This document shows, in pieces, positions 3,801 to 64,000 of a DNA stretch of 64,000 nucleotides (the stretch's first letter is position 1; every line of letters starts with the position of its first letter). Location: positions 1 through 64,000 of IMG/VR virus record IMGVR_UViG_3300031237_000002. The stretch is one strand, 5' to 3'. The stretch comes from a virus. A model generated the notes under the pieces. The model searched no databases, was not told where the DNA came from, and was given only the letters and a program-made list of their open reading frames with translations. Made by a program: the position numbers and the translations under genes.

Positions 3801-6800
3801 CGCACCAGTGATTCACCAGAGTCAAAGCCGAACAGCTCGGCCACTACGTCGGGATGCAGGCCGTTCTCTTTATAGCGGAAAGGCAGATCGCTCAACGTAA
3901 CACCAAGGTCTAGGAGCGCTTGTTTGTCGAGCTTAGTCGATGATAAACCTTCGATTTCAGTACCATCGGGAAGCTTACCAGTATAAAGCCAGTAAGCAAC
4001 ACGGTTGATAGGAACTGCCAGAACTTCCGCACGCACCACCGGCGCCAAGGCTTTCTTTTCATCCCGCCATGCTTGTGTTTTTTCACGGCGCAACTCCTTC
4101 ATGATCTTGGCGCGGAAATTATCTTCTGCGATTAATTTGGCTTCCTCATTTAAATTATTGTACGCGGCGTATTCTTCGCCGGTCATCATGGTTTCGTCCA
4201 TCAACTTAACGTCGTAACCATTGCGCTGATGCGCCTGTTTAATCGCTTCGTCAGTAGCAATCAAGCGGTCCATCACTTCCCTTACTTCTGGTGTCAGGGT
4301 TACATCCAACATAACCATGCTTTTATAAATACGGCTCAACCAGTTTTTCAACTGATGAAAGACAACGCGCAGTTGGAACGAAGGCGCTTTGCCTTCCATC
4401 AAATAAGCTTCGAATCCACGCGCAAACGTTTCGTGTGACTCTGTAGAAATTTTATCATCCGTTGCACCAGTCCATTCCTTGATGGAAGCCCAGTCAGATT
4501 TTAATTGCTCTGGTGCATCAGGCCGTAAAGCGTCTGATCTTAATTCTTCCAGCCAGATGTGCGCACTTTCGTGGGCGAACGTACTGGCATCAGCATTTTT
4601 AAGCAACGCGATCAGGTTCTTGATTGGTACGCTGGCACCACGTTCGCCTTGGAACAGCACGCCCTGCCCGGCATCGACTTTGGTTGGCAGCCGGATTTCC
4701 TCACTGGCTGCCAGATCCCACACGGCTTTTTCACCCAGCATTTCGCCCTGAGCAATCGCCACATCGCGTGGCAGCACGTTGGTGATGTCGATGTAGCCTT
4801 TGCCTGATTCGCTGTCTACCCACACCCCCAGCGCCGCGTTGGGATCTGCTTGAAAGATGTCCCGGTTGCGCCGCATGAATGTTTCCAACTCGCGTGACGT
4901 CGGCGCGCCTTCGGTCACGACACCGCGTTGTGGGTAACCTGCCACGGCCACGCCTTCGGTTCCAGCCAGATTACCGCGTACCGGGTGTATGGTCCCACCG
5001 AACACACCGAACGCCTCTTGGCTGGCTTCACCAGCCGCCACAGCGGCGATGGACGATCCGCGTTCCTCTGGTGTGGCTGGCGGCAGATTGATTTCGCCGC
5101 CTTCCAGATCCAGTGCTGGCCGGTCAGGCGTAGGGATAGCCGGTTCAGCCAGTGATTGATTGTGCACTTCCATTTGCTGTGCCACTTCTGGTGGCAAGTC
5201 GCGCTGAATGGTCAACGGCTGTTCGTTATACAGTACCAGTGGATCGACACCCAGCCGTTCTGCCCGGCTGCGCAGGCGCTCACGCCAGAGCGTGGCATCG
5301 CGAACAGCTTCCTGTTCGCTGGTGCCGATCTGGCGCAGCTTGGTATAGATGTCTTGGTATACAGTAGCCAAGGGGGCTTCCTCGGCTACCTTGGCTGCCA
5401 TCTCTTTTTCCAACCCAGCCAATATAACTGGCTCTGAATCTGCTACTTGAGCGGCTTCGGTTGGTGTCATTTCCCCCGGATTCAACCGGATGTGCGGAAC
5501 AAGCTTTTCGTGGAATGGCGTTCCCGCCAGCTTCTCCGCATATGTTTCAAGAGGGACGACCAGATCGCCGCCCGTAGTTTGCGCTTCCTGATATTGATTG
5601 AGATTGCCAAATACTTCTTGCGCTGCATTAGGTGCACCATCTTGAAATAAAGCATTCCAGCTTTCTATTGGAATAAAGACATCCTTTACAATCTGGTTAT
5701 TGTCTTTTAGATGTTTCACATAATCACCAAAAGCCGCTGGTGAATTCTTGAACGTGCTAGAGCTATTAGCCAAGTCTCCCAAGCTGTGCATAAACTCTTC
5801 GTTTTGAGCCGCCTTTTCCATGTCGGCATAAAGCTCAATTACCCGTGGTCCTGACGCCAGCGCGCCTAATACCACCGTGCCTTTAAAGGCAGCGGTGGAT
5901 TCAGCAACAATGTCTTTCGCATCCTGCCCGCTGACACCAGCGCCCATATCACCCGTGGCCGCTTCCCTGCCAACGATGGTGATAAACTTTTGCATGCCTT
6001 CGGTGAATGTTTCAGTACCGACAGCCGCCGCGTACTTTTTACCGAAGTCTTTCATGGCAGCCATAACCGTTGGCTTAACCAGAATTTGTTTCAGTTCATC
6101 AGTGGTGAATTTACCGATTACTTTATCAATGCCGGGGATGGCTTTGATAGACGTCCTTAACGACGCGAACTCAAGCACTGAGTTAGGCACGGCCACCAGA
6201 AGTGAAGCGTATCGCGCAACAACAGGGTCAATACTATTTCCGTCAACATCTTTAGCATCCTCAAGATCACCGAAGGCTTCACCCACACTTTGTTTATAAA
6301 TTTGCTCGATGTAGGAAGCGTGGAACCCGGCTTTGAAACCACCTACTGCACCAGCCGCTGCGCCGCCCGGTACGGTAGCAAATGCGCCGGGGCCACCCAA
6401 CAGGCCAGCCGTGGCGCCAATCGCCGCGCCAGCCGGTACGCCAAACTTGAGTGCCGTTTCACCAGCCTCAAGGGTCATTGGAACATTCATGCCAACGATA
6501 TTCGCCGCTGATTTAAACCAGCTCGGTGCGCCTTCGTCGAACTGCTGCGCCTTCTCCGCTAATTTTTTCTTAAGGTCGGCGCGCTCTATTTGTTCTTGCG
6601 GTGTGATGTCGCCTGTTACGGCTTTATAACCAAGGCCCATTAATCTTTCTTGCTCGCCGCCTTCACCGAACCCGTGGGGAATAGCTTGCAGCGTAGCCCA
6701 CGACTGTTCCAGAGCCGATAAATTCTCATAATCGCCCTGAGCCAAAGAAGCACGAGTAGGATTTTTAGACAACCATTCAGCAAGTAAAGGAGACTGTCTG

Positions 6801-7435
6801 CGAAACGATTCTGGGTCGAAGTCTTCCTGTTTAGCCTTCTCTTCGATTTCATCTAAGTTGCGCTCAATCAAACCGGTAGGCAGCCCTGTGCGCAACTGCA
6901 TATTGTAAATACGCGAAGCTTGGTCTATAGGCTTTGGGTCCAAGACAGATGCACGCAACACATCGTCTTCATGGTTGTCTGGAAATAAAGCCCCGGCTGC
7001 TCTACGCGCTCCTTGCACGCCGGGGAACAAGCCTTCTGCTTCCGTAACTGGTTGTTGATCCTGATTATCAAAAGCTTGGCTACTGGACAGCACACGCTGT
7101 GTGTACTGCTCCATAACCTGAGACAGATAGTTGCGGGTTTCTTCTGGCATGGCGCTAATACTGCCGCGCTCTTTCAGCCTGCCCGGACCACCGTTGTACG
7201 CGGCAATCGCCATTTCTGGATCACCGCCAAACTGTTTCATTAAATTAGTCAGGTAACGCTTGGCACCAGCCCGCGCTTCTGGTTCATTGAATGGATCTTT
7301 TACACCGTACTCTGCCGCCGTATCATCCATAAACTGATACGGACCTTTAGCGCCTTTAGGGCTTACGGCCATATTGTTTCCGCGTGACTCAACATGCTTA
7401 ACTGAGTCCAGCAGGATTTCCATGTCAAGACTCAT
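860..7435 (-). CDS. Giant internal virion protein with lytic transglycosylase domain (copy 1)
   Basis: A 2191-residue protein. Residues 1-110 form a soluble lytic transglycosylase domain: catalytic Glu16 in HVESRGN and the AYNGGPGRL motif near residue 80. This is the architecture of T7 gp16-like internal core proteins that open peptidoglycan during DNA ejection. A Gly/Ala-rich hydrophobic stretch (about 340-375) and a C-terminal hydrophobic segment before a run of Asp could be membrane-active. A metallopeptidase-like HESAH motif starts at residue 955. The C-terminal half resembles domains of large polyvalent phage proteins. The ATG overlaps the stop of the upstream gene in ATGA. Virion location and ejection role are inferred from family and neighbours. 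Confidence 0.88.
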   Translation of the reverse strand: MSLDMEILLDSVKHVESRGNNMAVSPKGAKGPYQFMDDTAAEYGVKDPFNEPEARAGAKRYLTNLMKQFGGDPEMAIAAYNGGPGRLKERGSISAMPEETRNYLSQVMEQYTQRVLSSSQAFDNQDQQPVTEAEGLFPGVQGARRAAGALFPDNHEDDVLRASVLDPKPIDQASRIYNMQLRTGLPTGLIERNLDEIEEKAKQEDFDPESFRRQSPLLAEWLSKNPTRASLAQGDYENLSALEQSWATLQAIPHGFGEGGEQERLMGLGYKAVTGDITPQEQIERADLKKKLAEKAQQFDEGAPSWFKSAANIVGMNVPMTLEAGETALKFGVPAGAAIGATAGLLGGPGAFATVPGGAAAGAVGGFKAGFHASYIEQIYKQSVGEAFGDLEDAKDVDGNSIDPVVARYASLLVAVPNSVLEFASLRTSIKAIPGIDKVIGKFTTDELKQILVKPTVMAAMKDFGKKYAAAVGTETFTEGMQKFITIVGREAATGDMGAGVSGQDAKDIVAESTAAFKGTVVLGALASGPRVIELYADMEKAAQNEEFMHSLGDLANSSSTFKNSPAAFGDYVKHLKDNNQIVKDVFIPIESWNALFQDGAPNAAQEVFGNLNQYQEAQTTGGDLVVPLETYAEKLAGTPFHEKLVPHIRLNPGEMTPTEAAQVADSEPVILAGLEKEMAAKVAEEAPLATVYQDIYTKLRQIGTSEQEAVRDATLWRERLRSRAERLGVDPLVLYNEQPLTIQRDLPPEVAQQMEVHNQSLAEPAIPTPDRPALDLEGGEINLPPATPEERGSSIAAVAAGEASQEAFGVFGGTIHPVRGNLAGTEGVAVAGYPQRGVVTEGAPTSRELETFMRRNRDIFQADPNAALGVWVDSESGKGYIDITNVLPRDVAIAQGEMLGEKAVWDLAASEEIRLPTKVDAGQGVLFQGERGASVPIKNLIALLKNADASTFAHESAHIWLEELRSDALRPDAPEQLKSDWASIKEWTGATDDKISTESHETFARGFEAYLMEGKAPSFQLRVVFHQLKNWLSRIYKSMVMLDVTLTPEVREVMDRLIATDEAIKQAHQRNGYDVKLMDETMMTGEEYAAYNNLNEEAKLIAEDNFRAKIMKELRREKTQAWRDEKKALAPVVRAEVLAVPINRVAYWLYTGKLPDGTEIEGLSSTKLDKQALLDLGVTLSDLPFRYKENGLHPDVVAELFGFDSGESLVRQLIGLPRLNDTINEEVNRRIREKHGGIIVEGTTEQEVAMEIQNTQQIDVFNMELRILKRMGAKRELTHKAVLKDIAQQIISRQRLGELNPRLYEEAALRASQEAQDHLLGHEFRMGTGRNLDKAFDAKQKQMLNIFLFKEASAQKAFSDKAIKVWTKRLSKSDDKLAKNYDMNMVNAARSVAAVHGIGAAAATAASYMKAMSMYDPQTYADLSELVELASSDGRPVADLTVADFSMVNDAIDGLWTMARRTRQVEIDGEKLDRDTVVGELSSVIMSLVKPGTKKAGYTKAISNWDKTKMGFLGGLAQLRRVESWADAMDSGDPKGVFRRYIWQPVSEAADRYRDDRRLILRKYEEIAKSVPKETFKVGKIDAPEIGYEFANKTELIGALLHTGNQSNLQKLLRGREWGAFNSEGELDTRRWDKFIERMHSQGMLNKADYEFVQKVWDLLDELKPGAQKSHKAMYGFFFNEVTAQPINTPFGTFAGGYFPALVDPFIVEDANIRAEKETVEGRPSSFMFPTTGRGFTKQRTEAYAKPLSLELGLIPSHIEKVLRFTHLEPVVKDIGRVAINKDFRSTLAMLDSEVGTVMLMPWLQRAALQLVEQPSGPRMRMLDSFFHNVRTNTGLQLMAANVSVALQQIAGLSLSAIKVKPRYLAGALWRYTSSPRQYTSHVNESSMFMRNRLSSQLMEIRQSIDNITLNPSKYKKAKDFATEHGYFMQTGMQNVVDMVTWGGAYEQATQNGADEKSAVREADAAVRQTQGTFHAEDVSRFETGSSFKRVFTMFYSYFNMSANLNATEFAKAMRKSGFEAGGRALYIYALGFMIPAVIGEAIVQMVSGQAFDDDDDDGYLDNILSMFFGGQARMATAMVPVLGPITQIGINQFNDKWYDDRMSVSPAVSAVEAIARVPVGAWKVATEDEARLKRPIQDVLTTVGMVTGLPVAPLAKPIGYLTDVDQGYIEEPDNPVEFARGLISGKAPQ

Positions 7436-9267
7436 TGTTCTTTCTCCAAGGCTTTTTTGCCTTCTTCGGCAGAACCACCAGTAATGCTGATCGCGTACGC
7501 ACGTTCAAGCCGCCCTTTCATGCCCTGCTTAATTTGCTGATCACTCCAATCCAGTGGTGCCAATCCTTGGGAGCGCATGTAATTCATGGCGCCTTTCAAC
7601 CAAGTGCTGTCGATGGTTTCAATTGGCACGTAAATATTTTTACGTTGCTCTGGTTTAATGACTGGCGCAGGCAACGACGTGTCGCCACTCCAATGATCTA
7701 CCATCACTTTTTTATCAACCATTTTTTGCATGAGCGTTTCTTTTTCTTCCCGGTTTAAAGTTTTACCAGTGCGGCGTTGCTCCATGTCAATAGCGCCTTC
7801 TACTTCATTGCGCATACGGCCAAGGTATTCTTTCTGCTCAGGACTAAGATTTTTTTCGTAAGGCTTCATGCCAGCGTTAGCCGCGATCACATTAAAAGAC
7901 TCCGCGTCCATGGTGGCTGCTTTAACTGCCTCTGGTGAATTAAGCTTGCGCTTGGCTTGCATCAATTCCTGAGTAAGCGTCTGGCCGATAGATGGTTCCA
8001 GTTTAAGAATCTGCGCCTCTGACAAAGTGTTCAACACTTGTGGGTTGGACAGCTCCCAATAAGTACTAAACCCAGCAGTGGCTTTTGCGCCTTCACGGAA
8101 CGAAGCTTCTGACCGGGCATGTTGTTGCTCTGTCCAGCCACGGTTCACTATGTAATCGCGCAATTTAATTTTGGCTTCACCATCCAATGCCTGATATGAA
8201 GGCAGTGTTTGTAGTGTCGCCAAATCTGCACCGTCATGGTATTGCTGCAATACATCAGCTTCGTTCGATGCCTTCATTTCCGTTACACCATCCTTGTGGG
8301 CCACGGCACGGGAACGCACGTCAGCAATAGCGGCTTTCATTTCTGCCGGGTTATTTTTGTACCGGTCACGCAGCCACGTTTCCATAAGATCGAGGCGTAC
8401 AGGATCATCAGGGCCTTTAGGCCCAAGGTAACCCCAAGCGGTGTCAGCACCACGGATGGACTCGCCATCGACAGTGGCCGATTTAACCTTGTTACCAAGG
8501 AGGACAATTGCCTCTGGTGTCAGCTCGCTTTTAAACTGGTTATAGTAAGCAGCCGCCGCAGAGTCTTTACCCTGAGATAACATCTGGCCGATAACGTCAG
8601 CGTGGATAAGCGTACCGGCAATGCGTTTCTGCTGGTTGATTACATCCACGTCATCCATGCCTTTCAGCCGCGCTTGCCGTTCAATCTCCATATCGGTGCG
8701 CAGCAAGGACATCTGGATCTGGCCCGGTTGGTCCCAATTCAATGCAGCCGATGCGCGCTCGGTGGCCATCAATCCTTCTGACACTGAGTCTTGATAAGCG
8801 CGGGATTGGTCAGCGACATGACGGTACAGGCGCGCATCAAACTGGCGATCCGCGATGCGTGCGCGTTTATCGAAAGCAACCCTTTGTGTATCACTGCCCA
8901 AGCCGTCGCGAATCTGTTTAGCAATGCCTTCGCGTTTTGCCCGGTAGTCTTCCGACAGCGGCTGTTTAACAGCGTTGCCGCCGACGACATTAACAAAACC
9001 ATTTTCCTTGCCGTATTCCAGTTCCAGCAAACCTTTCTGGTAATTCGAAAAACCTTCCTCGGTTTGCGCTTCGTCAATACGCGCTTTCTCTTTTAAAGCC
9101 AAAGCTGTGACGGTATCACCCAACCCGGTAATAACTTGGCCGAACTGGATTTCTGCTTGCGCTTCTGCGCCACGGCGTGGCGTGCTTAATTGCAGACGCG
9201 AGACGCCACCACGCCCCGATGGTGCGGGGCGTTGGCCTAAGTCTTCTGCTGTCGGTAATCTGGCCAT
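7432..9267 (-). CDS. Internal virion protein, T7 gp15-like position (copy 1)
   Basis: A 611-residue, largely helical, charged protein rich in Ala, Glu, Lys and Gln, with no signal peptide or clear enzymatic motif. It lies between a small gp14-like core protein and the giant transglycosylase protein, the slot of the T7 gp15 internal virion protein. I take the ATG at 9267, which overlaps the upstream stop as TGATG; a GTG one codon upstream is possible. The gp15-like role rests on position and composition, not on a recognised motif. The copy at the right end of the window is incomplete. Confidence 0.75.
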   Translation of the reverse strand: MARLPTAEDLGQRPAPSGRGGVSRLQLSTPRRGAEAQAEIQFGQVITGLGDTVTALALKEKARIDEAQTEEGFSNYQKGLLELEYGKENGFVNVVGGNAVKQPLSEDYRAKREGIAKQIRDGLGSDTQRVAFDKRARIADRQFDARLYRHVADQSRAYQDSVSEGLMATERASAALNWDQPGQIQMSLLRTDMEIERQARLKGMDDVDVINQQKRIAGTLIHADVIGQMLSQGKDSAAAAYYNQFKSELTPEAIVLLGNKVKSATVDGESIRGADTAWGYLGPKGPDDPVRLDLMETWLRDRYKNNPAEMKAAIADVRSRAVAHKDGVTEMKASNEADVLQQYHDGADLATLQTLPSYQALDGEAKIKLRDYIVNRGWTEQQHARSEASFREGAKATAGFSTYWELSNPQVLNTLSEAQILKLEPSIGQTLTQELMQAKRKLNSPEAVKAATMDAESFNVIAANAGMKPYEKNLSPEQKEYLGRMRNEVEGAIDMEQRRTGKTLNREEKETLMQKMVDKKVMVDHWSGDTSLPAPVIKPEQRKNIYVPIETIDSTWLKGAMNYMRSQGLAPLDWSDQQIKQGMKGRLERAYAISITGGSAEEGKKALEKEQ

Positions 9268-40442: not shown

Positions 40443-40470
40443 TTGACAATACAGCGGTGCAACATATTAT
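40443..40470 (+). promoter_or_regulatory. Rightward promoter overlapping the RHH gene start
   Basis: TTGACA (40443-40448), a 16-base spacer and TATTAT (40465-40470). The -10 box touches the ATG of the ribbon-helix-helix gene, so transcripts from here would miss that start. The promoter may instead serve the 212-residue gene downstream, or the RHH start may be misassigned. Confidence 0.5.
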
Positions 40471-42704: not shown

Positions 42705-42711
42705 CAAACGG

Positions 42712-42737
42712 TACTGGCAAGCGCCAGTATTTGTTGT
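42712..42737 (+). terminator. Rho-independent terminator before the array
   Basis: TACTGGC-AAGC-GCCAGTA (7-bp stem) followed by TTTGTTGT. It separates the small membrane protein gene from the TIGR-like array and suggests the array is transcribed from its own promoter. Confidence 0.7.
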
Positions 42738-42745
42738 ATCATTGT

Positions 42746-42863
42746 AATACAGCCAGCCAATTCAAGAAACCCAATGAGGCAAAGCGAGCCATCCTGCACA
42801 AGAAACCCAGTTTTAAGAAGCGAGTCACTAAAGAAAAGTAACCCACCCCCTTTAAGCGAGCCA
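42746..42863 (+). repeat. TIGR-like array 1 (upstream of tasH)
   Basis: Two 10-nt repeats alternate with 8-nt spacers. Repeat A (AAGCGAGYCA) lies at 42782, 42818 and 42854 with an exact 36-nt step, and a degenerate copy (AATACAGCCA) at 42746. Repeat B (AAGAAACCCA) lies at 42764, 42800 and, as AAGTAACCCA, at 42836. Spacers in order: gccaattc, atgaggca, tcctgcac, gttttaag, ctaaagaa, cccccttt. The last A repeat lies just before the tasH start codon, which is inside the next spacer. The transcribed strand is not known. Confidence 0.9.
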
Positions 42864-42868
42864 CCGCC

Positions 42869-43816
42869 ATGACAAATAAAATTGACATTAAAAAGCTTGT
42901 AGAAAAACATCAGAAACGCCTTTGCGCTTTGTCTGGTGAAACCCTCCCTGATGATTACAGCCTTGTAGATACCCATCGCAAGCAGCACAAGGCGCAAGGT
43001 GGCACCTACACGGAAGAGAACACCATTGTCGCAACGCCGCGTGCGCACATGGCCGAACATGGAACATTGCGCGACCGGGAAGACTGGCTGGAGCAACTTA
43101 AATCCTTGATGGATGATCGCTCCCAAGTCATGAAACTTATTTTTAAAATCAACAACCAGCTTCTGGCTGGCGAACGCCGCACTGACCATCTTTCGGAAGA
43201 CACCGAAGCCATGCTTAATGAAGCGCTGGTGTTGCCAGAGAAACGTCTTACCCGTATCGACAGTGCAATCACCAAGCACCTTAAGGCGCCAGACCGTAGC
43301 GTTCTGGTTGATTCCTTGATGGGCGTGCGTGGCGTCGGTCCTGTTACAGCGGCTGGCCTGCTGGTGTACATCGACCTTGAAAAAGCAGACAGCCCGTCAG
43401 CTTTGTGGAAGTATTGCGGCCTGCATTGTGCCTCACACCAGCGGTATGAGAAAGGCGTAGCAGGCGGCGGTAATAAAACTCTGCGCACCATCCTGTATAA
43501 ATGGGCATTGTGCATGGAGAAAGACGTTAAGAATCCTTACCGTGTTGTTTACGAACAGGATAAAGCGCGTCGGGAAGTATCCGATAAGTTGGTGAAATCC
43601 TACAACACACAAGGAAAGCTGGTGGAAGTGGCATGGAAAGATACCAAGCCTTCCCACCGTCGTGGTGCTGCTATCCGCGTAGCAGAGAAACATTTCCTTG
43701 CTGACTTCTGGATGGTAGGCCGCGAGCTGTTGGGTCTGCCAACGCGTACCCTGTATGTAGAACAAATTTTAAATCACGACGGCATTATTAAACCTGCCGA
43801 ACGCGGTTGGATTTAG
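42869..43816 (+). CDS. tasH: HNH + Nop/IS110-like protein, probable TasH
   Basis: A 315-residue protein. Residues 19-65 look like an HNH nuclease: D34/H36 in VDTHRK, GGTYTEEN with N51, and RAHMAEH with H60/H64. A helical, charged region follows (66-145). Residues about 145-225 resemble the C-terminal domain of IS110/IS1111 transposases and Nop-domain proteins: MGVRGVGPVTAAGLLVYID, LWKYCGLHC, GGGNKTLRTILYKWAL. The DEDD/RuvC domain of true IS110 transposases is absent. The gene is flanked by 36-nt-period dual-repeat arrays on both sides. TIGR-Tas systems are described as such arrays plus a Nop-domain protein, with HNH in TasH; the match in architecture and period is strong, but homology has not been computed. 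Confidence 0.8.
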   Translation: MTNKIDIKKLVEKHQKRLCALSGETLPDDYSLVDTHRKQHKAQGGTYTEENTIVATPRAHMAEHGTLRDREDWLEQLKSLMDDRSQVMKLIFKINNQLLAGERRTDHLSEDTEAMLNEALVLPEKRLTRIDSAITKHLKAPDRSVLVDSLMGVRGVGPVTAAGLLVYIDLEKADSPSALWKYCGLHCASHQRYEKGVAGGGNKTLRTILYKWALCMEKDVKNPYRVVYEQDKARREVSDKLVKSYNTQGKLVEVAWKDTKPSHRRGAAIRVAEKHFLADFWMVGRELLGLPTRTLYVEQILNHDGIIKPAERGWI

Positions 43817-44143
43817 CCATAATCGCTGAGTAAACCATAAACAGTAAGCGAGTCATTGTTCATAAGAAACCCACTCAGAACAAGCGAGTCATTATTCATA
43901 AGAAACCCATTGCGGACAAGCGAGCCAAGATATTAAAGAAACCCATGATTAACTAGCGAGTCATCATACCGAAGCAACCCATAATGGCGAAGCGAGCCAA
44001 CCCATCATAGAAACTCATTTCGTGAAAGCGAGCCATTGAAGAGAAGAAACCCAAGTCCATTAAGCGAGCCATTTCGTATAAGAAACCCAACTCCATTAAG
44101 CGAGCCACCTTCCATGAGAAACCCAACAAGGACTAGCGCATGA
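43810..44143 (+). repeat. TIGR-like array 2 (downstream of tasH)
   Basis: Repeat A (consensus AAGCGAGYCA) starts at 43846, 43882, 43918, 43954, 43990, 44026, 44062 and 44098, exactly every 36 nt; degenerate copies lie at 43810 (over the tasH stop) and 44134 (over the polymerase ATG). Repeat B (AAGAAACCCA and variants) starts 18 nt after each. All spacers are 8 nt: ttgttcat/ctcagaac, ttattcat/ttgcggac, agatatta/tgattaac, tcataccg/taatggcg, acccatca/tttcgtga, ttgaagag/agtccatt, tttcgtat/actccatt, ccttccat/acaaggac. The degenerate first unit has taatcgct/taaacagt. The last spacer contains AAGGA, placed as SD for the polymerase gene. Confidence 0.95.
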
Positions 44144-46134
44144 TTCACTTAGACTTCGAATCCCGCAGTGTCTGCAATCTAATAACAGACGGCACGTACA
44201 AGTACGCGGCACATCCAACCACAGACATTAGCTGTTTCTCATGGTGTATCGGGGATGGCCCGGTATCAGTCTGGTATAATTGGGAACCACTACCAGAAGG
44301 ACTGTTAGCCGCAGTAGAAGCAGGTTTATTAATTGCGGCATGGAACGCCAACTTTGAACGGCTGATGTGGAACATGGTGTTGATCCGCTATGGCGCACCA
44401 GCCTTGCCAATCAACCGTTTCTATTGCGTGGCAGCCAATGCCCGCGCCCGTGGCTACCCCGGCAAACTTGAAAAGGCCGCCCGGTTTGCTGGCCTCGGTG
44501 TCGATAAAGATATGGAGGGTTACAGGTTAATGATGAAGCTGTGCAGGCCACGGCGCATCGAGGAAGACGGCACCATCGTATGGTGGGAAGACTACAACGA
44601 TCTGATCCGCCAAGGCGAATACTGCGCGCAGGATACCGTCGTTGAGCGCGCTATGAGCGTGCTGTTAATGCCGCTCTCTGAACAGGAGCTGGCTGATTAC
44701 TGGCTGTCGGAAGAGATAAACGACAGGGGTATTCTGGTTGATCGTGAACTTGCAACCGCAGCAGTGGTTGGCGCCGAGTCAGAGAAACTAACTTCTGACG
44801 ATATCATCAAGAAACTTACCGATGGTGACGATGATACCGGTCATGGCGCTACGGCGTGCACACAAGTACAGCGTATTTTGAAATGGGTTGAAGAAGAATG
44901 GAAGCCTTTGACCGGTCTTAAATTAGTCGATGGCGAATGGAAGCAGATGCCTAGTCTAGCCAAGAGTGATGTACTCGATGCGTTACAAGAGGATGATATA
45001 CCGCCGCACGTTGCCGACGTCCTTGAACTCCGACTGGAAAACTCTAAGGCGGCTGTATCTAAGTTCGCCGCAATGCTTAATAAGAGCGACGAAGCCGGTT
45101 GCGTCAGAGGTTTATTTGTATTTCATGGGGCTGGACCGGGGCGGTTCACGTCATTCGGTTTACAAGTCCAGAATCTGGTAAGGGAATCAAATCTGGAAGC
45201 GATACCAATCCTCAAAAAGTACGGCATGAAAGGGCTGGCCATGATGGGCGAGCCGGTCAAGATTCTGGCGCAGATGGTGCGACCTGCATTCATGGCAGCG
45301 CCCGGCAAGACATTGTTGGTTGGTGACTTTTCGCAAATGCAAGTAAGGATTACTGCATGGCTGGCCGGGCAACAGAACCTGTTGCAGTTGTTCCGCGACA
45401 ACAAGGATGTTTACTGCGCCTTTGGCTCCATTGCCTTTGGCCGTCCTATCACCAAAGCCGATATCATCGAGCGGTTTGTTTCGAAGGGCTGCATCCTTGG
45501 TCTAGGCTTTGGTGGCGCGGAAGGCGCACTGGCGCGGACGCTTAAGAAAGAAAACATTATCCTGCCATTCAGCGAATTAAAAGAGCACAAGGAAACTTAT
45601 CGTGAAGTCTACCCGGAAATTAAACAACTCTGGTACACATTACGAGACGCAACATTACTCGCTATGTTTTCTCGCGGTACAATTGTACCCGTCGGGCCAG
45701 TTAGTTATATGTACGATGGTGAACATTTGTGGTGTCGTCTGCCGTCTGGACGGCTCATGTGTTACCCCTATGCCAGAGTCGTGCAAGATGATTACGGCGA
45801 CTGCATCGAATACCGTCGAGGTAATCGCAGCCCCAAATCAGGAGTGATGGACTGGCCGGTAGAGCGCTTGTGGTATGGCACCTTTACCGAAAACTTGGCG
45901 CAAGCCATTGAGTTTGACTTGATGATAAGTGCCATGCGCAAGTTGCGCGCCCGCTATGCGGAACGCATGCCAGTACGTATACATGTTCACGACGAGATAG
46001 TTCCAGAGGTTTTAATAGAAGAGTCAGAAGAACTGCTACCAGAATTCCTTGCGCTTATGGCAGAAGGCGAAGAGTGGAGCGAAGGTTTACCAATTGCCGT
46101 GGAAGGCCATATTACTCAGAGGTACGTAAAATGA
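44140..46134 (+). CDS. polA: Family A DNA polymerase with 3'-5' exonuclease
   Basis: A 664-residue replicative polymerase. Exonuclease motifs: LDFES (D5, E7), WNANFERL and YCAQD. Polymerase motif A is GDFSQMQVR (D396), motif B/O-helix RFVSKGCILGLGFGG (R445, K449, L453, F457) and motif C VHDEIV (D618, E619). By spacing with E. coli Pol I, L453 is residue 762 (Phe in E. coli), F457 is 766 (Tyr), and Q401 replaces steric-gate Glu710. No 5'-3' exonuclease domain. The ATG lies in the last degenerate unit of the TIGR-like array, with SD from the last spacer. Confidence 0.93.
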   Translation: MIHLDFESRSVCNLITDGTYKYAAHPTTDISCFSWCIGDGPVSVWYNWEPLPEGLLAAVEAGLLIAAWNANFERLMWNMVLIRYGAPALPINRFYCVAANARARGYPGKLEKAARFAGLGVDKDMEGYRLMMKLCRPRRIEEDGTIVWWEDYNDLIRQGEYCAQDTVVERAMSVLLMPLSEQELADYWLSEEINDRGILVDRELATAAVVGAESEKLTSDDIIKKLTDGDDDTGHGATACTQVQRILKWVEEEWKPLTGLKLVDGEWKQMPSLAKSDVLDALQEDDIPPHVADVLELRLENSKAAVSKFAAMLNKSDEAGCVRGLFVFHGAGPGRFTSFGLQVQNLVRESNLEAIPILKKYGMKGLAMMGEPVKILAQMVRPAFMAAPGKTLLVGDFSQMQVRITAWLAGQQNLLQLFRDNKDVYCAFGSIAFGRPITKADIIERFVSKGCILGLGFGGAEGALARTLKKENIILPFSELKEHKETYREVYPEIKQLWYTLRDATLLAMFSRGTIVPVGPVSYMYDGEHLWCRLPSGRLMCYPYARVVQDDYGDCIEYRRGNRSPKSGVMDWPVERLWYGTFTENLAQAIEFDLMISAMRKLRARYAERMPVRIHVHDEIVPEVLIEESEELLPEFLALMAEGEEWSEGLPIAVEGHITQRYVK

Positions 46135-55103: not shown

Positions 55104-55541
55104 TTAATCCAGCGTGAAGCTGGATGCAGTGGTCAGCCGTGGTGTAACGTTCTGGCTAAAGTTGATGTTAGGGCTGATCGTACCAGCCGCAATGATCTTG
55201 CCAGCAGTCGAAGCGGACGTTACACCAATGGAAGCGTGGGTAAACGTACCGGTCGAAGTGGAAGTGTTTTGCGGAAAGTCGATGTTGGCCACTGGCGAAA
55301 CGCTGTTGTTGGTGACAACCCAGCCGCCAGTGGTACGCGCTACAGAGATACGAGTGTACTGCGCGTAGCCACCTTCGTTGGTGCCCTGAGTACCTGTGTC
55401 GGCTGGGTCAGCCGTGTGCAGCGAGCACCAAAGGTTAGTGAGTGGTGACGATGCGGCGTTGTCCGCGATGTTGCTGATAGCAACAGCGTTAAAGATCAAC
55501 TTGCAAACGTCATTCTCAAATGTGTCTGAAAAGCCAGCCAT
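55104..55541 (-). CDS. Virion-associated hypothetical protein (copy 2, complete)
   Basis: A 145-residue beta-rich Ser/Thr protein starting MAGFSDTFENDVCKLIFNAV, with a HTADPADTGTQG segment and the end TPRLTTASSFTLD. It is the complete version of the partial gene at 1-298. Similar proteins occur with tail fibre genes in many phages, where they may cap or attach the fibre. No enzymatic motif. Confidence 0.72.
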   Translation of the reverse strand: MAGFSDTFENDVCKLIFNAVAISNIADNAASSPLTNLWCSLHTADPADTGTQGTNEGGYAQYTRISVARTTGGWVVTNNSVSPVANIDFPQNTSTSTGTFTHASIGVTSASTAGKIIAAGTISPNINFSQNVTPRLTTASSFTLD

Positions 55542-55553
55542 GATTAAATCCTC

Positions 55554-56126
55554 TTACGCTGTTTGTTCAAAGGTAACAATATTACCCATTTCGTCACGTT
55601 GTGTGACCCTGAATTTCAACATAGGTCTAGCTGTTGGTTTAGGTGCTGCCACTGGTGCAGGCTTGGCACTTTGTAGCTTCGACACTTGTTGCTCCAGTTT
55701 AGCGCAATTACCTTTCTCTGCTTCCAATTGAGTTTGCGCCTTGATCTTGTCTTGGCGTTCCGTCGCCATTTGCCCGCGTAGTGCGTCAATCTGACTTTGC
55801 ATCTGTTCCATTTCGCCACAATGCTTACTACGCATGGCGTCCATTTCCTGTTTAGCCGCATCTTTTACATCCAAGATTCTGGCCGATAAAGTTTTTTGTA
55901 ATCCTGAAAGCTCCTTGCTTACGTCTGCCAACTGCGCCACTAATGCGGCGTTGTCAGCTTCTACCTTGATTCGTTTATCATCAGCCAGTTTAATTTCAGC
56001 TTTAGCTTTACGCTCTACATCAGCCGCGTAGCTGGCCATCATTTTATTAGCGGCATTCTCTGACACTGGTGTATCGGGAATGCTGCCCCGGCCCAACTTC
56101 TGCTCCAGCAATTTTAACTTGCTCAT
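55554..56126 (-). CDS. Coiled-coil protein (copy 2)
   Basis: A 190-residue coiled-coil protein. From about residue 50 it matches the copy-1 protein (DNAALVAQL, MQSQIDALR, KVTQRD-like FRVTQRDEMGN), while the N-terminal 45 residues are unrelated. The start overlaps the giant protein stop as ATGA. Role unknown. Confidence 0.8.
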   Translation of the reverse strand: MSKLKLLEQKLGRGSIPDTPVSENAANKMMASYAADVERKAKAEIKLADDKRIKVEADNAALVAQLADVSKELSGLQKTLSARILDVKDAAKQEMDAMRSKHCGEMEQMQSQIDALRGQMATERQDKIKAQTQLEAEKGNCAKLEQQVSKLQSAKPAPVAAPKPTARPMLKFRVTQRDEMGNIVTFEQTA

Positions 56127-59100
56127 TGTGGTGCCTTCCCGCTAATAAGCCCGCGTGCAAACTCAACTGGATTATCAGGCTCTTCTATATGGCCTTGTTC
56201 AATCTCGGTCAAGTACCCAATTGGTTTAGCCAGTGGCGCGACAGGTAAACCAGTCACCATGCCTACAGTCGTCAGCACATCTTGTATAGGGCGCTTTAAT
56301 CTGGCTTCGTCTTCTGTTGCAACTTTCCAAGCGTCATATGGAACTCTTGCAACAGCTTCCAGTGATGATATGGCTGGTGATGCGCTAATGCGGTCATCAT
56401 ACCATTTATCATTGAACATGTTGATACCGGTCTGTGTCATTGGCCCCAGTACAGGAACCATTGCCGTAGCCATGCGGGCCTGACCACCAAAGAACATGGA
56501 CAGGATGTTGTCCAGATAACCATCATCGTCGTCATCATCGAACGCCGCGCCGCTGACCATCTGCACAATCGCTTCACCAATCACGGCTGGAATCATAAAG
56601 CCCATGGCGTATACGTACAGTGCCCTGCCACCAGATTCAAACCCACTCTTGCGCATTGCCTTGATAAACTCGGTAGCGTTTAAATTACCGGCCATGTTGA
56701 AGTAGGAATAGAACATGGCGAAGACACGCATAAGCGCTGTGCCGGATTCGAAACGCGATACGTCTTCGGCGTGGAACGTGCCTTGAGTTTGACGAACAGC
56801 CGAATCTGCTTCGCGTACCGCCGACTTTTCATCTGCCCCGTTTTGAGTTGCCTGTTCGTAGGCACCACCCCAAGTAATCATATCGACCACGTTCTGCATA
56901 CCAGTCTGCATGAAATACCCATGCTCATTGGCGAAGTCTTTAGCCTTTTTAAACTTGCTTGGGTTAAGTGTTATATTGTCGATGCTCTGCCGAATCTCCA
57001 TCAACTGCGAAGACAACCGGTTACGCATAAACATTGACGATTCGTTTACGTGGCTGGTGTACTCTCTTGGGCTACTGGTGTAACGCCACAAGGCACCAGC
57101 CAGATAGCGTGGTTTAACTTTAAGTGCCGATAAACTTATGCCAGCAATTTGTTGCAGCGCTACTGACACGTTAGCCGCCATCAGTTGCAGGCCGGTATTG
57201 GCGCGCACGTTGTGGAAAAACGAATCCAGCATACGCATGCGCGGGCCTGATGGTTGTTCCACCAGTTGCAGCGCACTACGTTGCAGCCAAGGCATCAGCA
57301 TCATAGTGCCTACTTCGGTATCCAGCATGGCCAGCGTGCTACGGAAATTCTTGTTGATTGCTACCCGGCCAATGTCTTTAATGACAGGCTCGATGTGCGT
57401 GAAGCGTAACACCTTCTCGATGTGGCTAGGGATCAGCCCCAGTTCCAATGACAGAGCTTTCCTGTAGCCTTCTGTACGTTGTTTGGTAAAGCCACGGCCT
57501 GTCGTTGGGAACATAAAGCTGGATGGCCTACCTTCTACTACTTCTTTCTCGGCACGAATGTTCGCGTCTTCAACAATGAAAGGATCTACCAGCGCCGGGA
57601 AGTATCCACCGGCAAACGTGCCGTACGGTGTATTGAGCGGTTGCGCTGTTATCTCATTGAAGAAATAGCCGTACATTTCTTTGTGTGATTTCTGCGCGCC
57701 CGGTTTTAATTCACCAAGCAGATCCCAAACCTTTTGCACGAATTCATAATCATCCTTAGTTATAATACCAAATTTGTGCATGCGCTCAATAAATTTATCC
57801 CAACGTCTGGTATCTAATTCCTCATTAACTATTACACCCCAGTCTCTACCTACCAAAAGCTTCTGCAAATTGGATTGGTTGCCGGTATGCAGCAGCGCGC
57901 CGATCAGTTCGGTTTTATTGGCGAACTCATAGCCAATTTCTGGCGCGTCAATCTTGCCTACTTTAAAAGTTTCCTTCGGCACTGACTTGGCAATCTCTTC
58001 ATATTTGCGTAGGATAATGCGCCGGTCATCACGATAGCGGTCTGCTGCTTCGCTGACTGGCTGCCAGATATAACGACGGAACACGCCTTTGGGGTCGCCG
58101 CTGTCCATGGCATCAACCCACGATTCGACGCGGCGCAGCATAGCCAAGCCGCCAAGGAATCCCATCTTGGTTTTATCCCAATTAGAAAGTGCCTTGGCAT
58201 AACCGGCTTTCTTGGTGCCGGGCTTCACCAGCTCCATGATTACGCTGGACAGCTCGCCTACTATGGTGTCGCGGTCCAGCTTCTCGCCGTCAATCTCAAC
58301 CTGCCGGGTGCGCCGGGCCATTGCCCACAGGCCGTCTATCGCGTCATTGACCATCGAGAAGTCAGCCACTGTCAGATCAGCAACAGGGCGCCCATCGCTC
58401 GATGCCAGTTCCACCAGCTCTGACAGATCCTCAAAGGTTTGTGGATCGTACAAGGACATGGCTTTCATGTAGCTGGCCGCTGTAGCTGATGCGGCACCAA
58501 TGCCATGAACGGCGGCAACAGAGCGAGCCGCGTTGACCATGTTCATATCGTAATTTTTAGCCAGCTTGTCGTCAGATTTAGACAGGCGTTTTGTCCAAAC
58601 CTTAACAGCTTTATCAGCAAATGTTTTTTGTGTTGACGCTTCTTTAAACAGAAAGATGTTGAGCATTTTTTTCTGCACGGCATCAAACGCTTTATCCAGA
58701 TTGCGCCCTGTGCCCATGCGGAACTCACGGCCCAGCAGATGATCCTGTGCTTCCTGCCCGGCGCGCAGCGCGGCTTCTTCGTACAGACGTGGATTAAGAT
58801 CGCCCAGCTTTTGCCGGGAGATAATTTGCACGGCGATATCCTTAAGCACAGCTTTGTGTGTCAGCTCGCGTTTAGCGCCAAGGCGTTTAAGAATACGCAG
58901 TTCCATATTGAACATGTCAATCTGTTGCGTGTTCTGAATCTCCATCGCCACTTCCTGTTCTGTCGTGCCTTCGACAATAATGCCGCCGTGCTTCTCGCGA
59001 ATGCGCCGGGATACTTCCTCATTGATGGTATCGTTCAACCGTGGCAGACCGATCAACTGGCGCACCAGTGATTCACCAGAGTCAAAGCCGAACAGCTCTG

Positions 59101-62100
59101 CAACCACGTCAGGGTGCAGGCCGTTTTCCTGATAGCGGAAAGGCAGATCGCTCAACGTAACACCAAGGTCTAAGAGCGCTTGCTTATCGAGCTTAGTCGC
59201 TGACATGCCTTCGATTTTAGTACCATCAGGTAGAACACCAGACCACAGCCAGTAAGCAGCGCGGTAGATAGGAATCGCCAGAATTTCTTCACGAACAATC
59301 GGCGCCAACGCTTTCTTCTCGTCCCGCCATGCTTGTGTTTTTTCACGGCGCAACTCCTTCATAATCTTGGCGCGGAAATTATCCTCGGATATTAATTTAG
59401 CTTCCTCTGCCAAATTATTATACGCGGCGTATTCTTCGCTGGTCATCATGGTTTCGTCCATCAGCTTGATGTCGTAACCATTACGCGAACGGGCTTGCTC
59501 GATGGCAGCATCCGTAGCAATCAAGCGGTCCATCACTTCCCTTACTTCTGGTGTCAGGGTTACGTCCAACATAACCATGCTTTTATAAATACGGCTCAAC
59601 CAGTTTTTAAGCTGGTGGAATACAACGCGCAGTTGGAACGAAGGCGCTTTGCCTTCCATTAAATAAGCTTCGAATCCACGCGCAAACGCTTCGTGTGATT
59701 CAGTGGAAATTTTATCGTCCGTTGCACCAGTCCATTCCTTGATGGTAGCCCAGTCAGATTTAAGGCTATCTGGTGCATCAGGCCGTAAAGCGTCCGCCCT
59801 TAATTCTTCCAGCCAGATGTGTGCGCTTTCGTGGGCGAACGTACTGGCGTCAGCGTTTTTAAGCAGCGCGATCAGGTTCTTGATTGGCACCGATGCGCCG
59901 CGTTCGCCTTGGAACAGCACGCCCTGCCCGGCATCGATTTTGGTTGGCAGCCGGATTTCCTCACTGGCGCCAAGATCCCACACGGCTTTCTCACCCAGCA
60001 TTTCACCCTGAGCAATCGCCACATCGCGTGGCAGCACGTTGGTGATGTCGATGTAGCCTTTACCAGACTCACTGTCTACCCACACGCCCAGTGCCGCGTT
60101 GGGGTCAGCCTGAAAGATATCCCGGTTGCGCCGCATGAATGTTTCTAGCTCATGTGACGTTGGCGCACCCTCGGTCACGACGCCCCGTTGTGGGTAGCCT
60201 GCCACGGCCACGCCTTCGGTTCCGGCCAGATTGCCGCGTACCGGGTGTATGGTCCCGCCGAACACGCCGAACGCTGCTTGGCTGGCTTCACCAGCCGCCA
60301 CAGCAGCGATAGACGATCCGCGTTCCTCTGGTGTAGCAGGCGGCAGATTGATTTCGCCACCTTCCAAATCCAGCGCTGGCCGATCAGGCGTAGGGATAGC
60401 AGGTTCAGCCAGTGATTGATTGTGCACTTCCATTTGCTGCGCCACTTCTGGTGGCAAGTCGCGTTGAATGGTCAACGGCTGTTCGTTATACAGCACCAGT
60501 GGATCAACACCCAGCCGTTCCGCCCGGCTGCGCAGGCGCTCACGCCAGAGCGTGGCATCGCGAACGGCTTCCTGTTCGCTGGTGCCGATCTGGCGCAGCT
60601 TGGTGTAGATGTCTTGGTAGACCGTAGCCAAGGGGGCTTCCTCGGCTACCTTGGCTGCGAACTCTTTTTCCAACCCGGCCAATATAACTGGCTCTGAGTC
60701 CGCCACTTGAGCGGCTTCGGTTGGTGTCATTTCCCCCGGATTCAACCGGATGTGCGGGACAAGCTTTTCGTGGAATGGCGTTCCCGCCAGCTTTTCCGCA
60801 TATGTTTCAAGAGGGACGACCAGATCGCCGCCCGTAGTTTGCGCTTCCTGATATTGATTGAGATTGCCAAATACTTCTTGCGCTGCATTAGGTGCACCAT
60901 CTTGAAATAAAGCGTTCCAGCTTTCTATTGGAATAAAGACATCCTTAACTACTTGGTTGTTGTCTTTTAGATGTTTCACATAATCACCAAAAGCCGCTGG
61001 TGAATTCTTGAACGTACTGGAGCTATTAGCCAAGTCCCCCAAGCTGTGCATAAACTCTTCGTTCTGCGCTGCCTTTTCCATGTCAGCGTACAACTCGATT
61101 ACCCGTGGCCCTGATGCCAGCGCGCCTAATACCACTGTGCCTTTAAAGGCAGCAGTGGATTCGGCAACAATGTCTTTCGCATCCTGCCCGCTGACACCAG
61201 CTCCCATATCCCCAGTGGCGGCTTCCCTACCGACAATGGTGATAAACTTTTGCATGCCTTCGGTGAAAGTTTCAGTACCGACAGCCGCCGCGTACTTTTT
61301 ACCGAAGTCTTTCATGGCAGCCATAACGGTTGGCTTAACCAGAATCTGTTTCAATTCATCAGTGGTGAATTTACCGATTACTTTATCAATGCCGGGGATG
61401 GCTTTGATAGATGTCCTTAACGACGCGAACTCAAGCACTGAGTTAGGCACGGCCACCAGAAGTGAAGCGTATCGCGCAGCAACAGGGTCAATACGATTTC
61501 CGTCAACATCTTTAGCATCCTCAAGATCATCGTAGGCATCGCCCACACTCTGTTTATAAATCTGCTCGATGTAAGAAGCGTGGAACCCGGCTTTGAAACC
61601 ACCCACTGCACCAGCCGCCGCGCCGCCCGGTACGGTAGCAAATGCGCCGGGGCCACCCAACAGGCCAGCCGTGGCACCAATCGCCGCACCAGCCGGTACG
61701 CCAAACTTGAGCGCCGTTTCACCAGCCTCGATGGTCATTGGCACATTCATGCCAACGATATTCGCCGCCGATTTAAACCAGCTCGGTGCGCCTTCGTCGA
61801 ACTGCTGCGCCTTCTCTGCTAATTTTTTCTTAAGGTCGGCGCGCTCTATTTCTTCTTGCGGGGTGATGTCACCAGTTACGGCTTTATACCCAAGGCCCAT
61901 TAATCTTTCTTGTTCGCCGCCTTCACCGAACCCGTGGGGAATAGCTTGCAGCGTAGCCCACGACTGTTCCAGAGCCGATAAATTCTCATAATCGCCCTGA
62001 GCCAAAGCAGCACGAGTAGGATTTTTAGAAAGCCATTCAGCAAGTAAAGGAGACTGTCTGCGAAACGATTCGGGGTCGAAGTCTTCCTGTTTAGCCTTCT

Positions 62101-62698
62101 CTTCGATTTCATCTAAGTTACGCTCAATCAAACCGGCTGGCAGCCCTGTGCGCAACTGCATATTGTAAATACGCGAAGCTTGGTCTATAGGCTTTGGGTC
62201 CAAGACAGATGCACGCAGTACATCGTCTTCGTGGTTGTCAGAGAATAGGGCAGCCGCAGACTTGCGGCGCTCTCCTTGAGCGCCGGGGAACAAACCCTCA
62301 ATCGGCGATACTGGTTCTTGATCCTGATTATCGAAAGCGTTGCTGCTGGACAACACACGCTGTGTGTACTGCTCCATAACCTGTGACAGATAGTTGCGGG
62401 TTTCTTCCGGCATAGCACTAATACTGCCGCGCTCTTTCAGCCTGCCCGGTCCACCGTTATACGCGGCGATGGCCATCTCTGGATCACCACCAAACTGATC
62501 CATAAGTCTGGTCAGGTAACGCCGGGCGCCTTCGCGTGCTTCTGGTTCATTGAATGGATTTTTAACGCCGTACTCTTCCGCCGTATCATCCATAAATTGA
62601 TACGGGCCTTTAGCGCCTTTAGGGCTTACGGCCATATTGTTTCCGCGCGACTCAACATGCTTAACTGAGTCCAGCAGAATTTCCATATCAAGACTCAT
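56123..62698 (-). CDS. Giant internal virion protein with lytic transglycosylase domain (copy 2)
   Basis: A 2191-residue homolog of the product of 860-7435, exactly the same length and highly similar. It retains the catalytic Glu16, AYNGGPGRL, the HESAH motif, and the C-terminal Asp run. Changes concentrate in a short variable stretch at about residues 118-150 and scattered conservative positions. Conservation of length over 6.6 kb despite many base changes shows purifying selection. Confidence 0.88.
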   Translation of the reverse strand: MSLDMEILLDSVKHVESRGNNMAVSPKGAKGPYQFMDDTAEEYGVKNPFNEPEAREGARRYLTRLMDQFGGDPEMAIAAYNGGPGRLKERGSISAMPEETRNYLSQVMEQYTQRVLSSSNAFDNQDQEPVSPIEGLFPGAQGERRKSAAALFSDNHEDDVLRASVLDPKPIDQASRIYNMQLRTGLPAGLIERNLDEIEEKAKQEDFDPESFRRQSPLLAEWLSKNPTRAALAQGDYENLSALEQSWATLQAIPHGFGEGGEQERLMGLGYKAVTGDITPQEEIERADLKKKLAEKAQQFDEGAPSWFKSAANIVGMNVPMTIEAGETALKFGVPAGAAIGATAGLLGGPGAFATVPGGAAAGAVGGFKAGFHASYIEQIYKQSVGDAYDDLEDAKDVDGNRIDPVAARYASLLVAVPNSVLEFASLRTSIKAIPGIDKVIGKFTTDELKQILVKPTVMAAMKDFGKKYAAAVGTETFTEGMQKFITIVGREAATGDMGAGVSGQDAKDIVAESTAAFKGTVVLGALASGPRVIELYADMEKAAQNEEFMHSLGDLANSSSTFKNSPAAFGDYVKHLKDNNQVVKDVFIPIESWNALFQDGAPNAAQEVFGNLNQYQEAQTTGGDLVVPLETYAEKLAGTPFHEKLVPHIRLNPGEMTPTEAAQVADSEPVILAGLEKEFAAKVAEEAPLATVYQDIYTKLRQIGTSEQEAVRDATLWRERLRSRAERLGVDPLVLYNEQPLTIQRDLPPEVAQQMEVHNQSLAEPAIPTPDRPALDLEGGEINLPPATPEERGSSIAAVAAGEASQAAFGVFGGTIHPVRGNLAGTEGVAVAGYPQRGVVTEGAPTSHELETFMRRNRDIFQADPNAALGVWVDSESGKGYIDITNVLPRDVAIAQGEMLGEKAVWDLGASEEIRLPTKIDAGQGVLFQGERGASVPIKNLIALLKNADASTFAHESAHIWLEELRADALRPDAPDSLKSDWATIKEWTGATDDKISTESHEAFARGFEAYLMEGKAPSFQLRVVFHQLKNWLSRIYKSMVMLDVTLTPEVREVMDRLIATDAAIEQARSRNGYDIKLMDETMMTSEEYAAYNNLAEEAKLISEDNFRAKIMKELRREKTQAWRDEKKALAPIVREEILAIPIYRAAYWLWSGVLPDGTKIEGMSATKLDKQALLDLGVTLSDLPFRYQENGLHPDVVAELFGFDSGESLVRQLIGLPRLNDTINEEVSRRIREKHGGIIVEGTTEQEVAMEIQNTQQIDMFNMELRILKRLGAKRELTHKAVLKDIAVQIISRQKLGDLNPRLYEEAALRAGQEAQDHLLGREFRMGTGRNLDKAFDAVQKKMLNIFLFKEASTQKTFADKAVKVWTKRLSKSDDKLAKNYDMNMVNAARSVAAVHGIGAASATAASYMKAMSLYDPQTFEDLSELVELASSDGRPVADLTVADFSMVNDAIDGLWAMARRTRQVEIDGEKLDRDTIVGELSSVIMELVKPGTKKAGYAKALSNWDKTKMGFLGGLAMLRRVESWVDAMDSGDPKGVFRRYIWQPVSEAADRYRDDRRIILRKYEEIAKSVPKETFKVGKIDAPEIGYEFANKTELIGALLHTGNQSNLQKLLVGRDWGVIVNEELDTRRWDKFIERMHKFGIITKDDYEFVQKVWDLLGELKPGAQKSHKEMYGYFFNEITAQPLNTPYGTFAGGYFPALVDPFIVEDANIRAEKEVVEGRPSSFMFPTTGRGFTKQRTEGYRKALSLELGLIPSHIEKVLRFTHIEPVIKDIGRVAINKNFRSTLAMLDTEVGTMMLMPWLQRSALQLVEQPSGPRMRMLDSFFHNVRANTGLQLMAANVSVALQQIAGISLSALKVKPRYLAGALWRYTSSPREYTSHVNESSMFMRNRLSSQLMEIRQSIDNITLNPSKFKKAKDFANEHGYFMQTGMQNVVDMITWGGAYEQATQNGADEKSAVREADSAVRQTQGTFHAEDVSRFESGTALMRVFAMFYSYFNMAGNLNATEFIKAMRKSGFESGGRALYVYAMGFMIPAVIGEAIVQMVSGAAFDDDDDDGYLDNILSMFFGGQARMATAMVPVLGPMTQTGINMFNDKWYDDRISASPAISSLEAVARVPYDAWKVATEDEARLKRPIQDVLTTVGMVTGLPVAPLAKPIGYLTEIEQGHIEEPDNPVEFARGLISGKAPQ

Positions 62699-64000
62699 TA
62701 TTTATTCTCCTTGCCTTCCAAGGCTTTTCTGCCTTCGTCCGCAGAACCACCAGTTATGCTGATAGCGTAGGCGCGTTCAAGTCTGCCTTTCATGCCCTGC
62801 TTAATTTGCTGGTCGCTCCAGTCAATAGGCGCATACCCAGCAGAGCGCATGAAATTAATAGCGCCTTTCAGCCAAGCGCCATCGATGGTGTCAAGCGGCA
62901 CGTAAATTTTGCTGCGCTGTTCTGGCTTGATAATAGGAGCTGGTAACGATGTGTCACCGCTCCATTTATCCAGCATGACTTTTTTGTCAACCATCTTACG
63001 CATCAAGGTTTCTTTTTCTTCCCGATTTAAAGCTTTGCCAGAATCGCGTTGTGCTACGTCAATGGCAGCCTCTACTTCATTGCGCAACCGGCCAAGGTAT
63101 TCTTTCTGGTCTTCACTGTTATTTTTCTCGTAAGGTTTAAGCCCTACGTCAGCAGCCACCACGTTGAACAGTTCAGCGTCAATGGTGGCAGCTTTAACAG
63201 ACTCAGGGCTATTAAGCTTACGCTTATCTTTAACCAGATCCTCTGTTAACTGACGGCCAAGGACAGGCTCCATAGCAAGGATCTGTTTTTCCGACAGGGT
63301 ATTAAGCGTCTGCGGATTGGACAGTTCCCAATAAGTCGAGAAGCCACGGGCTGCCTTTTCACCTTCCCGGTATTGAGCATCCATGCGCGCATGCTGCTGT
63401 TCGCCACGGCCACGTTGAACGATATAGTCACGCACTTCTGTTTTGGCTTTACCATCCAACGCTTGGTAAGAAGGCATTGTTTGCAATGTCGCCAGATCCG
63501 CACCGTCATGGTACTGCTGCAAAACGTCGGCTACGTTCGACGCCTTCATTTCCGTTACACCATCCTTGAATGCAACGGCACGGGAACGTACGTCAGCAAT
63601 AGCCGATTTCATTTCTGCCGGGTTATCTTTGTACCGGTCGCGCAGCCACGTTTCCATAAGATCGAGGCGGACAGGATCATCAGGGCCTTTCGGGCCAAGG
63701 TAGCCCCAAGCGGTGTCAGCGCCACGGATGGACTCACCATCAACAGTGGCTGATTTAACTTTATTGCCAAGGAGGACAATTGCCTCTGGTGTAAGCTCGC
63801 TTTTAAACTGGTTATAGTAGGCAGCCGCCGCAGAGTCTTTGCCTTGAGATAACATCTGACCAATTACGTCGGCATGAATTAAAGTGCCAGCGATACGTTT
63901 TTGCTGGTTGATTACGTCAGGGTCATCCATGCCTTTCAACCGCGCTTGCCGTTCAATCTCCATATCGGTGCGCAGCAAGGACATCTGGATCTGACCCGGT
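62698..64000 (-). CDS. Internal virion protein, 5' end outside window (copy 2)
   Basis: The C-terminal about 433 residues of the homolog of the 611-residue protein at 7432-9267; the start lies beyond 64000. Strongly similar throughout with scattered substitutions, and a slightly different C-terminus (EGKENK versus EKEQ). It overlaps the giant gene by one base instead of four. Confidence 0.75.
   Translation of the reverse strand, partial: PGQIQMSLLRTDMEIERQARLKGMDDPDVINQQKRIAGTLIHADVIGQMLSQGKDSAAAAYYNQFKSELTPEAIVLLGNKVKSATVDGESIRGADTAWGYLGPKGPDDPVRLDLMETWLRDRYKDNPAEMKSAIADVRSRAVAFKDGVTEMKASNVADVLQQYHDGADLATLQTMPSYQALDGKAKTEVRDYIVQRGRGEQQHARMDAQYREGEKAARGFSTYWELSNPQTLNTLSEKQILAMEPVLGRQLTEDLVKDKRKLNSPESVKAATIDAELFNVVAADVGLKPYEKNNSEDQKEYLGRLRNEVEAAIDVAQRDSGKALNREEKETLMRKMVDKKVMLDKWSGDTSLPAPIIKPEQRSKIYVPLDTIDGAWLKGAINFMRSAGYAPIDWSDQQIKQGMKGRLERAYAISITGGSADEGRKALEGKENK

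Follow-up and report, generated by a model that had tools for sequence, protein, structure and literature searches.

The window analyzed here, the whole stretch of DNA under study, comprises 64,000 of the 66,677 bases of IMG/VR record IMGVR_UViG_3300031237_000002. Two short-repeat arrays (42751 to 44138) flank an open reading frame (ORF) at 42869-43816, and the second array runs up to a DNA polymerase gene. The features are listed by window position, with the basis for each in brackets.

40443-40470, + strand: sigma-70-like promoter, 11 of 12, before the rightward operon (consensus scan)
42751-42858, + strand: upstream TIGR array of three 36-nt units (half-edge AGCCA at 42751-42755 through AAGCG of the last full edge, 42854-42863)
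42869-43816, + strand: tasH, RNA-guided nuclease with HNH and Nop domains, 315 aa (NCBIfam, solved TasH chains, CGphi29 identity)
43815-44138, + strand: downstream TIGR array of exactly nine 36-nt units (sequence, half-edge profile)
44098-44107, + strand: last full edge repeat AAGCGAGCCA, with the putative last processing site at 44102/44103 (sequence)
44103-44138, + strand: predicted last tigRNA, AGCCA-CCTTCCAT-GAGAAACCCA-ACAAGGAC-TAGCG, 36 nt (36-nt processing pattern and sequence)
44108-44115, + strand: spacer A of the last unit, CCTTCCAT (sequence)
44116-44125, + strand: loop of the last unit, GAGAAACCCA (sequence)
44126-44133, + strand: spacer B of the last unit, ACAAGGAC (sequence)
44128-44132, + strand: AAGGA, Shine-Dalgarno-like, within spacer B (ATG of polA 7 nt downstream)
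44134-44138, + strand: terminal half-edge TAGCG (its TAG is a stop in the polA frame and fixes the start)
44134-44143, + strand: stretch following spacer B, TAGCGCATGA (sequence)
44140-46134, + strand: polA, family-A DNA polymerase with a 3'-5' exonuclease motif, 664 aa, MIHLDFE... (Pfam, PHROG, identity to L102)

Elsewhere in the window, 860-8728 and 56123-64000 are two 7.9-kb copies that are 88% identical, each with a 2191-aa ORF, and a 0.6-kb piece recurs at 1-629 and 55244-55871 (83% identical). Either a giant gene has truly been duplicated or the contig was assembled across two strains.

The product of the ORF between the arrays passed the NCBIfam model NF052498 (TIGR_Tas_endo; 103.5 bits, cut-off 100), and a profile built from this product and its relatives matched the solved TasH chains at 1e-153. 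It was 56.5% identical, over 98% of its length, to a protein of Salicola phage CGphi29, which is SpTasH in the naming of Faure et al. 2025 (PMC12045711). Furthermore, the product matched Transposase_20 and combines a Nop-type (IS110-like) RNA-binding domain with an HNH nuclease. Based upon the cut-off, the structures and the identity to CGphi29, the ORF is TasH, and the flanking repeats therefore form a TIGR-TasH locus, which lies in the replication operon of a tailed phage. In TIGR-Tas systems the array is transcribed and cut into 36-nt tigRNAs that Tas binds, and the two spacers of a pair direct the cutting of opposite DNA strands; these systems have no known natural role. The guide-RNA array of the preliminary description is this TIGR array, processing into units being known for the family, and the 36-nt unit length in the window is consistent with maturation into 36-nt tigRNAs.

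Each unit consists of the edge repeat AAGCGAGCCA, an 8-nt spacer, the loop repeat AAGAAACCCA and a second 8-nt spacer, and these 10+8+10+8 nt units flank tasH on both sides. The downstream array opens with the half-edge AGCCA (43815-43819), which overlaps the tasH stop codon TAG (43814-43816) by two bases, and closes with the half-edge TAGCG (44134-44138). The whole gap between tasH and polA is occupied by the array, half-edge to half-edge, and edge repeats truncated at both ends are a feature by which TIGR-Tas arrays are recognized. For comparison, 53 IMG/VR stretches with exactly the same edge/loop repeat pair were gathered, together with IMG/VR arrays carrying the pair in reverse order, seven arrays from bacterial assemblies and 28 loci found via TasH alignment. 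Among the 47 related arrays ending on a loop, the first five positions of the following edge (AAGCG) were conserved at 60-87%, compared with only 4-34% for positions 6-10; the window array therefore ends at TAGCG, position 44138. This boundary is far beyond chance, and the half-edge profile rules out a chance pseudo-repeat at the array end. It also fits the published picture of truncated terminal edges and mid-edge processing (PMC12045711). The polA ATG had been placed in a terminal degenerate repeat; it does lie at 44140-44142 within TAGCGCATGA, but the supposed degenerate repeat is a normal 5-nt half-edge, TAGCG.

Like the window array, the TIGR-TasH array of CGphi29 (SpTIGR) alternates edge and loop repeats with spacers of 8 nt in a 36-nt unit, and it has half-edges at its ends. 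In contrast, the CGphi29 array ends in a rho-independent terminator (GCCCGC-CACAGA-GCGGGC-TTTTTT), whereas the window array has no terminator and runs into polA. Such a terminator was typical, not defining, in the first TIGR description (PMC12045711), and it is missing in most related arrays as well as in the window. Translation through the array, suggested by an ATGA overlapping polA and by the stop-free repeats, was considered and rejected, as the spacers were not depleted of stop codons. The array region was unmatched in Rfam. Spacer targets within the window did not exceed the shuffled expectation, and when spacers were paired according to the published tandem geometry, the window contained 2 self-target matches (at most 2 mismatches) compared with 2-5 in shuffles. 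Near-identical spacers of the same type were frequent within single arrays: over window positions 43846-44125 and 20 related array loci, 44 pairs with at most 1 mismatch were found, compared with about 5 (maximum 10) in two kinds of shuffle. Nine of the 44 pairs lay in adjacent units, with TTGTTCAT/TTATTCAT and AGTCCATT/ACTCCATT as examples from the window. TIGR arrays thus seem to grow by unit duplication, which is relevant to how they expand.

The polA product matched Pfam DNA_pol_A (1.8e-21) and PHROG 17. Its start is fixed because the reading frame is closed by TAG (44134-44136) two codons ahead of the ATG, residues 5-7 form the exonuclease motif DFE, and alignments with relatives begin at residue 1-2; the start codon at 44140 is certain, being the only possible ATG. 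It stands 1 nt past the terminal half-edge. The ribosome-binding site of polA is accordingly carried by the last array unit, as had been proposed, with AAGGA at 44128-44132 and 7 nt separating it from the ATG.

On the + strand from 42743 to 44140, neither a sigma-70-like promoter nor a terminator-like site was detected by the consensus scan, and the same scan found no terminator-like site on this strand after the downstream array. Therefore polA is probably read through from upstream with the array as its leader. An alternative is that a polA promoter lies inside the array and the last unit serves as leader only by chance; promoter and terminator statements at this locus come from a consensus scan that other phage promoter types would escape, yet the scan yielded no sigma-70-like site on the + strand, and we regard an internal promoter as very unlikely. 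Just before the upstream array, at 42710-42742, a weak promoter-like site (CTGGCA-17-TATCAT) comes after a GC-rich hairpin and is possibly the TIGR cassette's own promoter.

Published work has shown that TIGR arrays are processed into 36-nt units by cutting in the middle of the edge repeat, that processing requires Tas, and that minimal arrays required full edge repeats (PMC12045711). Since full edges are needed, a final cut within 44098-44107 is more likely than one at the terminal half-edge. By sequence, a cut at 44102/44103 would give a 37-nt polA leader that keeps both ribosome-binding site and ATG, while a cut at the half-edge would part AAGGA from the ATG, leaving one base before it. The preliminary description suggested that array processing could cut or free the polA mRNA and so link the system to replication control; in its activating form, release of a translatable polA mRNA would switch on replication. 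Cutting the last full edge would indeed yield a 37-nt leader with Shine-Dalgarno and ATG, and the predicted folding of that region was no stronger than in shuffles (z 0.61), but the uncut leader also folded no more strongly than shuffles (z 0.82). With no unusual predicted structure to be removed, processing would bring polA translation no obvious gain, and a cut after TAGCG (44138) would not free the mRNA as supposed: it would remove the ribosome-binding site and leave a 1-nt leader. The contact between array and polA is, moreover, not conserved, and activation by release appears highly improbable.

Relatives were recovered by the repeat pattern and the TasH alignment; searches with TasH and polA as single proteins returned none. 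The nearest relative found, an IMG/VR phage (L102, group G007), has the same order of array, tasH and array in a colinear replication region, with tasH 62% and polA 60% identical and polA aligned from residue 1. Unlike the window, it carries an 85-aa and a ~190-aa ORF between array and polA, neither of which was matched within the window, and its polA start overlaps the ~190-aa ORF, not the array. The array/polA contact, absent in this relative, is therefore a lineage-specific state, gained or lost by one of the two phages since their split, and this counts against the proposal that array processing frees or controls polA mRNA and links the system to replication control. The relative also holds three separate TIGR arrays within 2.6 kb (L102 2753-5334), each directly upstream of a gene of the same operon.

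Two further IMG/VR phages have arrays directly ahead of family-A polymerases that are only about 25-30% identical to the window polA. In L034 (G001), the array ends 6 nt before the polymerase ATG (...ATTACAAGG-AAGCG-GAGAGA-ATG), an arrangement similar to that in the window, but that polymerase is ~30% identical and tas lies 2 kb away. In L010 (G002), the array is directly upstream and the polymerase ATG is 24 nt past the half-edge; here, unlike in the window, the Shine-Dalgarno follows the half-edge. In L099 (G004; 2503-2590, reverse complement), the start region of tas lies wholly within the terminal array unit: the Shine-Dalgarno AGGAG straddles spacer and edge, the ATG is built from the edge's final CCA plus TG, and the tas ORF is open in frame through two array units. 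Given the junctions before the L034 polymerase and the G004 tas, some coupling of array and gene is conceivable. In IMG/VR, 10 stretches matched the exact junction (a perfect loop, then 8 nt, then WAGCGNATG); none of them was within an array, and they were discarded as chance matches.

Across related arrays, array ends are often close upstream of genes and leader-type arrays are common: by mechanical ORF calls (at least 100 aa) and simple start scoring, a gene started within 60 nt past the array end at 53 of 112 ends, compared with 24.9 at random positions. A terminator followed the array at 10 of 112 ends (0.7 at random), a lower bound that misses the CGphi29 terminator. The genes behind related arrays included tas, a UvsX-like recombinase, parts of an SbcC-like exonuclease, a small terminase and a ParB-like protein, with tas 0-60 nt downstream in about 25 loci. 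Overlap of the terminal unit itself with a gene start was only marginally unusual (10 of 81 ends, compared with 6.0 +/- 2.1 at random intergenic points and a maximum of 11 in 200 such draws). Terminal spacers showed no enrichment in ribosome-binding motifs, with Shine-Dalgarno matches of at least 5 nt in 3 of 47 terminal and 47 of 1364 (3.4%) internal spacers. Related arrays thus do not support the suggested link to replication control, since neither start sites nor Shine-Dalgarno motifs are clearly overrepresented in their terminal units.

These comparisons also bear on a model of occupancy, in which plentiful Tas would bind the last 36-nt unit uncut, or the half-edge would be cut, so that the ribosome-binding site is hidden or removed and polA translation lowered, with tasH likewise controlling itself via the upstream array. 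The predicted last tigRNA includes AAGGA and stops 1 nt short of the polA ATG, the tasH ATG lacks a good Shine-Dalgarno and stands 5 nt past the upstream array's last full edge, and both the arrays close ahead of tas and the terminal-unit start regions (entire in G004, nearly so in G001) are consistent with this model. However, the contact is not shared by the nearest relative, starts in the terminal unit are not clearly enriched, and most gene-abutting arrays have their Shine-Dalgarno beyond the half-edge, where processing would spare it. Truncated terminal edges may also escape cutting (PMC12045711). Control by occupancy is accordingly unlikely, and the comparative data do not favor a regulatory reading of the junction.

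The most probable explanation, and one we hold with fair assurance, is close packing of the TIGR array against polA with no dedicated control switch. The cassette would be packed tightly into the replication operon, and the array, having no terminator, would become the polA leader; this packing would put the polA Shine-Dalgarno in the last spacer and the ATG one base beyond the half-edge. Tas protein and a host RNase would cut the full edges, with the final cut at about 44102/44103, and the remaining 37-nt leader would keep its ribosome-binding site and ATG intact. Translation of polA would then proceed normally from cut or uncut transcript.

Many TIGR arrays lack a terminator and are found in the leader of tas or of a replication gene (DNA polymerase, UvsX-like recombinase, SbcC-like exonuclease), a placement that puts them inside phage replication operons. 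It is improbable that in phages with arrays leading such genes the binding of the last unit by Tas, or its maturation, sets downstream translation, the array serving as a leader with a cis-regulatory function by which Tas supply would be coupled to the synthesis of Tas itself and of DNA polymerase. If array maturation alters downstream expression, TIGR arrays would act as regulatory leaders in addition to supplying guides; if it does not, their placement would reflect economical packing.
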